Source: Gordonibacter sp. Marseille-P4307
GTDB lineage: Bacteria > Actinomycetota > Coriobacteriia > Coriobacteriales > Eggerthellaceae
Direction: 5' to 3'
DNA: 64,000 nucleotides
NCBI RefSeq assembly: GCF_900604965.1
Contig: NZ_UWPD01000001.1
Location: 1,256,642 to 1,320,641 of the forward strand
Every line of letters starts with the position of its first letter. Position 1 is the first letter of the stretch. Positions 6,376 to 18,285 of this stretch are shown here, piece after piece. The translations under genes were made by a program, and so were the position numbers. Below the pieces are notes generated by a model that worked only from the letters and a program-made list of their open reading frames with translations, did no database searches and had not been told where the DNA came from.

Positions 6376-6404
6376 TTGACGCAAACAAATGTTCGAGTAA
6401 TAAT
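6376..6404 (+). promoter_or_regulatory. recA promoter with LexA (SOS) box
   Basis: A -35 TTGACG (6376-6381) and a -10 TAATAAT (6398-6404) frame a spacer that contains CAAACAAATGTTCG at 6382-6395. This is the exact reverse complement of the box upstream of lexA at 16820-16833 and fits the Gram-positive CGAACnnnnGTTyG pattern. The box would block RNA polymerase until LexA is cleaved. The promoter lies inside a spurious upstream extension of the recA frame, which supports the ATG at 6436 as the real start. Confidence 0.85.
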
Positions 6405-16163: not shown

Positions 16164-16805
16164 TTAGATTCTTCTGAAAACCGCAACCACTTTTCCTACG
16201 ATCGTGCAGTCGCGGGTGATGATAGGTTCCATGGAGGAGTTTTCCGGTTGGAGGCGGATGTGATCGCGCTCTTTGTAGAAGCGCTTCACGGTTGCGCCAT
16301 CTTCGATGAGGGCTACGATGATCTCTCCGTTGTTGGCGACCTTCTGCTCTTTCACCACGACGTAATCCCCGTCGTTTATTCCGGCTTCGATCATGGATTC
16401 TCCGCGCACTGAAAGCATGAACGACGGTGAGTCTCCGACTATCTCGGTGGGAAGCGTCATGGTATCCGTTATGTTCTCTTCCGCAAAGATAGGCTCACCG
16501 GCGGCGACGTTGCCGACCAAGGGAATCTCAACCGCATTGCCGAACCGCGGAGCGATGATGTTCGTCGGTTCGACGAGCTGCTCTTCACACGGATGCGTGA
16601 GTGTTATCGAACGCGACTTCAGGGGATCGCGCTCGATATAGCCCTTCTGCTCAAGCGCTCCGAGGTGGACATGGACGGTGGAGGGGGAGGAGAGGTCGAG
16701 TGCGGCGCAGATCTCCCGCACCGTGGGGCCGTATCCCTTTTCACGTATGCATGCTTCGATGCAATCGAGCACCGCACGCTGTTTCTTGGTAAGTTTCTCG
16801 GACAT
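16164..16805 (-). CDS. lexA: SOS repressor LexA
   Basis: LexA represses DNA-damage genes until RecA filaments trigger its self-cleavage. The 213-residue protein starts at the ATG giving MSEKLTKKQR. It has the winged helix at residues 1-65 (PTVREICAALDLSSPSTV), the cleavage bond Ala102-Gly103 within VGNVAAGEPIF, the catalytic Ser137 in SVRGESMIEAG and Lys174 in ATVKRF, so it is complete and active-looking. The longer open frame upstream runs into the operator region and is rejected. Its promoter region carries three LexA boxes, implying autoregulation. Confidence 0.97.
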   Translation of the reverse strand: MSEKLTKKQRAVLDCIEACIREKGYGPTVREICAALDLSSPSTVHVHLGALEQKGYIERDPLKSRSITLTHPCEEQLVEPTNIIAPRFGNAVEIPLVGNVAAGEPIFAEENITDTMTLPTEIVGDSPSFMLSVRGESMIEAGINDGDYVVVKEQKVANNGEIIVALIEDGATVKRFYKERDHIRLQPENSSMEPIITRDCTIVGKVVAVFRRI

Positions 16806-16819
16806 GCTTCCTCCAAACA

Positions 16820-16889
16820 CGAACATTTGTTTGAAAAATCTTTGACAAGAACCTTTGTTCGATTTATTATAAACACGAACAAAGGTTCT
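16820..16889. promoter_or_regulatory. Divergent SOS promoter with three LexA boxes
   Basis: Three 14-bp boxes are visible: CGAACATTTGTTTG (16820-16833), AGAACCTTTGTTCG (16848-16861) and CGAACAAAGGTTCT (16876-16889). The second and third are exact reverse complements of each other. For the rightward gene a consensus promoter is present: -35 TTGACA (16842-16847), a 17-base spacer filled by the second box, and -10 TATTAT (16865-16870); the third box covers the likely start of transcription. The first box lies just upstream of the lexA start. This is a tightly LexA-controlled divergent promoter. Confidence 0.9.
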
Positions 16890-16909
16890 ATGCAAGCGAA
16901 AGGCACCGT

Positions 16910-17296
16910 ATGAACGTCAAAGATTCCAAGCGCTGTCCGGTGGTGGGAACTTCGGCTTTGCAGCTTCAGGGGGTTCGTCCCGGAAAGATCATTTCGTTTG
17001 ACGACATAAGGCATCAAGCCGAACATGGTGAAGCCGATTCCCGATACAGCCGCAGGTACCGGGTTTCTTTCGAGCGGTCGTCGCACCTTGTGGAACCCAC
17101 GGTTTCTCATGGGTCGATGTCGGTTGTTGACGACCTGCTGAATACGACTGCGCTCGGTTGCAGCGATGCCGTGTGCAGCATCGCTTACGAGGATGCTCGC
17201 GGAATATCGTTCGGCCTGCTAACCAAGTATCAGTCTCTGCTGTTCGGTGCCGGGTTGGTCGCACTCATGTCGATCGGTATGTTTTTCGGCATCTAA
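16910..17296 (+). CDS. LexA-controlled small membrane protein (possible SOS division inhibitor)
   Basis: The 128-residue protein has a charged N-terminal part, no recognised domain and one strongly hydrophobic segment at the very C terminus (residues about 109-128, LLFGAGLVALMSIGMFFGI), so it is probably a tail-anchored membrane protein. It is divergent from lexA and its promoter has two LexA boxes over the core elements. In Bacillus this position is held by yneA, an SOS cell-division inhibitor, and in Corynebacterium by divS. Those proteins are unrelated in sequence as far as I can see: there is no LysM domain here. A comparable function is inference from position and regulation. Confidence 0.7.
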   Translation: MNVKDSKRCPVVGTSALQLQGVRPGKIISFDDIRHQAEHGEADSRYSRRYRVSFERSSHLVEPTVSHGSMSVVDDLLNTTALGCSDAVCSIAYEDARGISFGLLTKYQSLLFGAGLVALMSIGMFFGI

Positions 17297-17398: not shown

Positions 17399-17848
17399 AT
17401 GCGCTGTTCAGCATGTGGAAATCTTGAATCGAAGGTTGTGGATTCGCGTCCTTCCGACGATGGGACTTCGATTCGTCGCCGACGCGAATGCCTTAAGTGC
17501 GGCAATCGGTTCACCACCTACGAACGCCTGATAGATACGTCGTTTATGGTGATTAAATCCGACGGCTCGTCTGAAGCGTACGATCGAGATAAGCTGATGA
17601 GGGGTCTTTTGATCGCCTGTGCCAAACGCCCCATCTCTCCCGAGCAGATCGAGAGCTTGGTCGATAACATGGAATCGACGTTGAGATCCGAATCAAAAAC
17701 GGATGTGTATTCGAAGGACCTTGGTTCGATGATCATGGACCGTCTCGCTAAGCTCGACGATGTTGCCTATGTCCGTTTTGCGAGTGTATACAAGCATTTC
17801 AACAGCGTTGAGGAATTCGCCGAAGCGCTTGAGGAGTTGAACAAATGA
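17399..17848 (+). CDS. nrdR: Transcriptional repressor NrdR
   Basis: NrdR senses ATP/dATP and represses ribonucleotide reductase genes. The ATG at 17399, 6 bases after AAAGGAG, gives 149 residues, the family length. The N-terminal zinc ribbon is intact (C3, C6, C31, C34; MRCSACGNLESKVVDSRP and ECLKCGNRFTTYER), followed by the ATP-cone domain. The stop overlaps the start of dut (ATGA), coupling two genes of deoxynucleotide control. Confidence 0.97.
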   Translation: MRCSACGNLESKVVDSRPSDDGTSIRRRRECLKCGNRFTTYERLIDTSFMVIKSDGSSEAYDRDKLMRGLLIACAKRPISPEQIESLVDNMESTLRSESKTDVYSKDLGSMIMDRLAKLDDVAYVRFASVYKHFNSVEEFAEALEELNK

Positions 17849-18285
17849 CCGGTGTCGAACTGAAAATCATGAAGTTGGATCCTTCGATCGAGCTTCCTTC
17901 GTATGCTTATCCGGGTGATGCAGGATTGGATCTGCGCGCAGCGGAAAACGCGGTTTTGAAGCCGTTCGAACGCAAGCTTGTGAGAACCGGCTTGGCTGTT
18001 GCCATCCCCGAGGGATATGCGGGTTTCGTTCTGCCCCGAAGCGGGTTGGCTGCAAAGCACGGTATTTCCATCGTGAATGCCCCCGGGCTCGTTGACAGCG
18101 GGTATCGAGGAGAGCTGAAGGTTGCACTGCTCAATACCGATGCCGAAAACGAGTTCAAGGTCGAGCGCGGCGATCGTATTGCCCAACTCACTATTTTGGC
18201 CACGCCGATCGTTACGTTGGCTCCTTGCGACGAGCTGCCTTCTTCAGAGCGCGGTGTCGGCGGGTTCGGCAGCAGCGGAGTTTAA
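17845..18285 (+). CDS. dut: Deoxyuridine 5'-triphosphate nucleotidohydrolase (dUTPase)
   Basis: Dut hydrolyses dUTP to dUMP, keeping uracil out of DNA and feeding dTMP synthesis. The 146-residue trimeric-type enzyme shows the five motifs: PGDAGLDLRA, LPRSGLAAKHG, NAPGLVDSGYRGELKVAL, RGDRIAQL and the C-terminal RGVGGFGSSG. It begins inside the nrdR stop codon, an ATGA overlap. Confidence 0.97.
   Translation: MTGVELKIMKLDPSIELPSYAYPGDAGLDLRAAENAVLKPFERKLVRTGLAVAIPEGYAGFVLPRSGLAAKHGISIVNAPGLVDSGYRGELKVALLNTDAENEFKVERGDRIAQLTILATPIVTLAPCDELPSSERGVGGFGSSGV

Follow-up and report, generated by a model that had tools for sequence, protein, structure and literature searches.

The window considered here is a stretch of 64,000 nucleotides of Gordonibacter sp. 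Marseille-P4307. It carries lexA on the minus strand (Pfam: Peptidase_S24, 1.8e-34; LexA_DNA_bind, 3.4e-24) and, opposite to it, an open reading frame of 128 codons that starts with ATG. Downstream of the latter follow nrdR and then dut (17845-18285, Pfam). The features of the locus are compiled in Table 1.

Table 1. Features at the lexA locus of the window
Feature	Position	Strand	Basis
lexA	16164..16805	-	Pfam
LexA box 1, CGAACATTTGTTTG, nearest lexA	16820..16833	+	14-mer identical to one upstream of recA
-35 element TTGACA of divergent gene	16842..16847	+	promoter scan
LexA box 2, AGAACCTTTGTTCG, inside promoter spacer	16848..16861	+	box pair 28 bp apart at 109/125 family loci
-10 element TATTAT	16865..16870	+	promoter scan; overlaps minus-strand TATAAT 16866-16871
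LexA box 3, CGAACAAAGGTTCT, at expected start site	16876..16889	+	box scan
Putatively SOS-controlled tail-anchored protein, 128 aa	16910..17296	+	ORF; family at 109/125 lexA loci; N-terminal homology to LysM-bearing sister proteins
Codons of N-terminal G-T-S-A-L motif, residues 13-17	16946..16960	+	motif counts in Eggerthellaceae and sister proteins
Codons of second conserved cytosolic motif I-I-x-F-D, residues 27-31	16988..17002	+	64-sequence alignment, F30 at least 90% conserved
Codons of C-terminal membrane helix, residues 106-127	17225..17290	+	AlphaFold2 and hydropathy
nrdR, conserved neighbour downstream	17399..17848	+	Pfam

Between positions 16700 and 17450, a promoter scan detected a single sigma-70-like site, TTGACA-17-TATTAT, with 11 of 12 consensus matches. 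The first-pass annotation had described a consensus promoter with one LexA box in its spacer and a second one at the start site. Both were found again, and box 1 comes in addition. The three boxes begin at 16820, 16848 and 16876, i.e., they are spaced by 28 bp. Together with the promoter they support the SOS control that had been proposed for the gene. The 14-mer of box 1 recurs upstream of recA (6382-6395, other strand), and this recurrence supports its role as the organism's operator. Exact GAACN4GTTC sites number three in the whole window, two of them opposite lexA; when the window was Markov-shuffled 200 times, an exact pair no more than 60 bp apart never arose, and a set of three near-boxes within 80 bp arose once. 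The TATAAT on the minus strand, read by eye, is weak (-35 TTGCAT, 3/6) and could serve lexA; from the same inspection by eye, a symmetrical -10 region may be common to both divergent genes, each having one box in its spacer. Five further loci with box-like sites in the same genome were read and yielded no clear additional SOS gene. At locus L004 an identical 14-mer is intergenic, and none of the genes beside it was recognised as a known SOS gene.

The 128-residue product has one membrane-spanning helix, at its C-terminus, as had been claimed; hydropathy and AlphaFold2 agree on this, and we infer its orientation. Based on a 64-sequence alignment, AlphaFold2 is confident only for residues 106-127 (pLDDT about 91-95), while the remaining ten-residue blocks average 52-81. 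The protein matched no Pfam and no PADLOC family; the best NCBIfam E-value was 0.097, and the YneA model PRK14125 did not match it. A search of the whole genome revealed no LysM at E ≤ 0.01.

The family at the lexA loci of Eggerthellaceae

Searching with the single protein sequence reached only 9 of the 138 Eggerthellaceae genomes, and a related-locus search with the 128-residue protein found no relative. The former result alone would suggest an orphan of one genus, which was ruled out by anchoring the search on lexA: a family then appeared. LexA was found in 129 of the 138 genomes (family code f1). From these, with G035, G083 and G127 left out, 127 distinct loci were fetched, two had too little upstream DNA, and 125 were examined; the rows left out are L142-L144 (repeats) and L040 and L136 (contig ends). 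An open reading frame was counted as a member if it lay no more than 75 nt from the last box, had a Shine-Dalgarno-like stretch and had its best membrane window at most 8 residues before the stop codon.

Such a divergent reading frame with one C-terminal membrane helix is present at 109 of the 125 loci and in 40 of 45 genera. By chance it is expected in 1.2% (29 of 2500 shuffles that kept the real leader and shuffled the rest). One doubtful case, the 41-residue L134 (G037), may be among the 109, and a single genome with 8% contamination contributes two copies, L116 and L135. A pair of LexA boxes 24-30 bp apart is seen at 119 of the 125 loci, in 109 at exactly 28 bp. On the fetched stretch nrdR accompanies the divergent gene at 87 of 109 loci. 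The equivalence in position to yneA and divS, which had been pointed out for the window, thus holds across the 125 loci. The divergent gene is absent at 16 of them and, therefore, dispensable. At L102, L105, L108, L096, L098 and L078 the box pair is kept and followed by nrdR, the divergent gene being absent; a box pair devoid of a divergent gene is consistent with autoregulation of lexA.

The family is highly divergent, with a mean column identity of 17% over 64 aligned sequences. Among these, G13, A16, L17, F30 and G98 (window numbering) are kept in at least 90%. The common pattern reads Y-x3-G-T-S-A-L ... I-I-x-F-P, followed by a variable linker, a glycine-rich stretch and the helix. The motif G[TSN]xA[LIMVAR] is found in 89 of 93 members of at least 70 residues, as compared to 4.2% in shuffled sequences. 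None of the 64 aligned members matches any Pfam family at E ≤ 0.01, in line with the lack of a LysM domain noted at first pass.

In all 109 members the best helix window, 17 residues wide, stops 0-6 residues short of the C-terminus, where the search itself demanded no more than 8. The helix retains positions of Q, G and A/S. Along it, conservation does not follow a helical period (4839 of 5000 shuffles scored at least as high), hence no binding face is seen. The length of the proteins ranges from 23 to 188 residues; the longest, L120 (G025) from the window's own genus, has an extra hydrophobic stretch ahead of the C-terminal helix.

Purifying selection on the family is suggested by a dN/dS of 0.10-0.47 in 13 of 14 pairs, two of the 23-residue form and eleven of longer forms. 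The values for the 23-residue form are 0.26 and 0.12, which are rough estimates on 23 codons. The remaining pair has a dN/dS of 2.4 with almost no synonymous change.

LysM-bearing relatives and the loss of the domain

For comparison, the lexA loci of other families of the class were inspected. Within the same order, two sister families, f2 and f3, probably Atopobiaceae and Coriobacteriaceae, contributed 41 loci: 35 encode a helix plus a LysM-like domain, one a divergent protein, two end at the helix (both genus g56) and three have no such gene. The divergent, LysM-like L217 is left out of the 35-protein set. Pfam LysM is recognised at E ≤ 0.01 in 33 of these 35 and in 20 of 20 proteins from more distant families. 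The NCBIfam model of YneA, PRK14125, matches 35 of 35 sister proteins at E ≤ 0.001, the best at 1.2e-16, with the three scores shown all lying below the curated cut-off. Ahead of the helix, G[TSN]xA[LIMVAR] occurs in 29 of the 35 LysM-bearing sister proteins, but in none of the 20 more distant LysM proteins and in 4.2% of shuffles.

Profile comparison leads in the same direction. The Eggerthellaceae set matches the f2/f3 set in the N-terminus only (probability 86, E 5e-6); if the LysM is clipped off, E improves to 3e-8, and the link rests on 17-32 columns. The f2/f3 set in turn matches the distant LysM set over the LysM (2e-26), while the Eggerthellaceae set has no match there. The f2/f3 proteins thus link the classical LysM inhibitor with the window protein. 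Since they keep the N-terminal motif, the helix and LysM at one and the same locus, the window protein appears to descend from the YneA/ChiZ type with loss of LysM and, judged from its sequence, is best read as an SOS division inhibitor of that type minus LysM. It had been considered as possibly a new SOS checkpoint protein. The SOS control, as predicted from the boxes, and the missing LysM agree with that view; an unrelated novelty it is not, because the LysM proteins of the sister families share its locus, N-terminal motif and helix.

How often the domain was lost can be estimated from a LexA tree of 77 rows. It places Eggerthellaceae, f4 and f6 on one side (support 89), g56 inside f2, and f7 and f9, which have forms of 36 and 38 residues, elsewhere. 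Three changes suffice on this tree, which suggests about three losses of LysM; support is moderate, LexA being short and 35 of the 74 inner branches being open. The joining of f7 and f9, two long branches, may be false. Across whole genomes of Eggerthellaceae LysM is seldom found, with no match at E ≤ 0.01 in 118 of 137; of 14 control genomes, 10 have one. None of the matches listed for Eggerthellaceae lies beside lexA, by coordinates.

Some genera went further. In genus g2 all eight examined loci encode a 23-residue peptide that is nearly helix only (rows with this form are L046, L058, L064-L066, L069, L044, L050 and L261), and genus g32 has forms of 33-34 residues. Tentatively, with chances a little short of even, we would describe a LysM-type SOS inhibitor that was pared down to its minimal core in a lineage of gut bacteria: the wall-binding domain was lost first, then in some genera also the cytosolic tail, and what was left is a helix of 23 residues under selection. 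Membrane peptides of 36, 38 and 46 residues are encoded opposite lexA in L216, L220 and L155 (f7, f9 and f6, respectively); they are probably separate reductions.

A possible brake on septation

Taken together, the locus would encode a LexA-repressed, damage-induced, tail-anchored protein that lacks LysM and stalls septation; for this explanation as a whole we estimate a probability of roughly 0.7. Locus, boxes, architecture, kinship to LysM-bearing proteins and lack of LysM are seen in the sequence itself, whereas induction, topology, target and division arrest are deduced and would be as follows. LexA would repress the gene via the boxes in its promoter. Upon DNA damage LexA would be cleared by cleavage and the protein be made. 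It would insert into the membrane by its C-terminal helix and leave a disordered N-terminus in the cytoplasm. Most likely, the helix would then bind the septal wall-synthesis complex (FtsW/FtsI/FtsQ), aided by the cytosolic motifs GTSAL and IIxFP, and septation would be stalled until LexA returns. Since three genes of the SEDS family occur in the genome, a target of this type is present.

ChiZ (Rv2719c) of Mycobacterium tuberculosis resembles the window protein in having a disordered cytosolic N-terminus and one helix. It differs by a periplasmic linker and a LysM domain, whereas the window protein ends at the helix. Its gene also lies opposite lexA with nrdR beyond, as in the window. ChiZ is induced by DNA damage (PMC7355643, PMC3989709). 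According to PMC7355643, its disordered N-terminus plus helix is enough for filamentation, which lends published support to a mechanism that works without LysM; LysM seemed unnecessary also in PMC3989709. YneA of Bacillus subtilis is likewise SOS-controlled, linked to lexA and built with a single membrane helix, and its NCBIfam model matches the sister-family proteins. In contrast to the window protein, which has none, YneA requires its LysM: PMC13396833 states that the helix deprived of LysM does not inhibit division. This is the main objection to the proposed mechanism. The same paper reports that the YneA helix reaches the septum by binding to TM7 of FtsW, and that modelling of ChiZ, SosA and SidA suggests FtsW as well, with low confidence.

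SosA of Staphylococcus aureus and DivS of Corynebacterium glutamicum are lexA-linked SOS division inhibitors that lack LysM (PMC6851548). Both, however, are predicted to end outside the cell, with a C-terminal part that is essential in SosA according to the same source; a segment of this type is seen in none of the 109 Eggerthellaceae members, which have 0-6 residues past the helix window in a search that demanded no more than 8. SidA of Caulobacter crescentus is a small SOS-induced membrane protein that acts on FtsW/FtsI/FtsN (PMC4211646). It resembles the forms of 23-34 residues in two genera, which are little more than one membrane helix, as the window protein is not. SidA belongs to another lineage, and descent from a LysM protein is not shown for it.

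Other functions have to be weighed against a division inhibitor. TisB is the kind of SOS peptide that disturbs membranes. If the window protein acted likewise, the helix would depolarise the membrane and slow the cell, and arrest of division would be secondary. The SOS-type promoter and the almost pure membrane helix of the 23-residue forms would fit. However, most members have long conserved cytosolic motifs, the family descends from LysM-bearing proteins, the helix keeps its Q, G and A/S positions instead of a charged amphipathic pattern, and Rfam detected nothing in the window, thus no toxin-type RNA family; we consider this unlikely. Slightly less likely still is a target outside division: a membrane-bound cytosolic regulator of, e.g., NrdR and the dNTP supply. 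The frequent presence of nrdR and, in the window, of dut as the next gene speaks for it; the relatives, however, hold YneA-type LysM proteins at the same place, and the shortest forms retain the helix, not a soluble domain. That the gene is a decaying, functionless remnant of a ChiZ-type gene is very improbable: the loss of LysM, the scattered lengths and the missing copies would be explained, but not the dN/dS below 0.5 in all pairs except the one with almost no synonymous change, nor the retention of motif and box pair.

A literature search of open-licence papers found no title that describes this family, which is weak evidence of absence, and a paper on the gut SOS meta-regulon makes no mention of Coriobacteriia in the main text (PMC3998124). 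The analysis provides an annotation for a protein that is widespread in gut bacteria and had no name, and singles out two cytosolic motifs. It also bears on how small membrane proteins stop septation, where YneA needs LysM and ChiZ reportedly can do without. A natural deletion series at one conserved locus is available in Eggerthellaceae and the sister families, from LysM-bearing via tail-anchored and 23-residue forms to gene loss; the contribution of each part thereby becomes testable. Should the reduced forms prove active, they would demonstrate that a helix on its own is able to stall the septal wall synthase, with binding to the wall as an extra that can be dispensed with. Named records with the family protein include Eggerthella sinensis and Adlercreutzia caecimuris; A. 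caecimuris B7 carries the 23-residue form.
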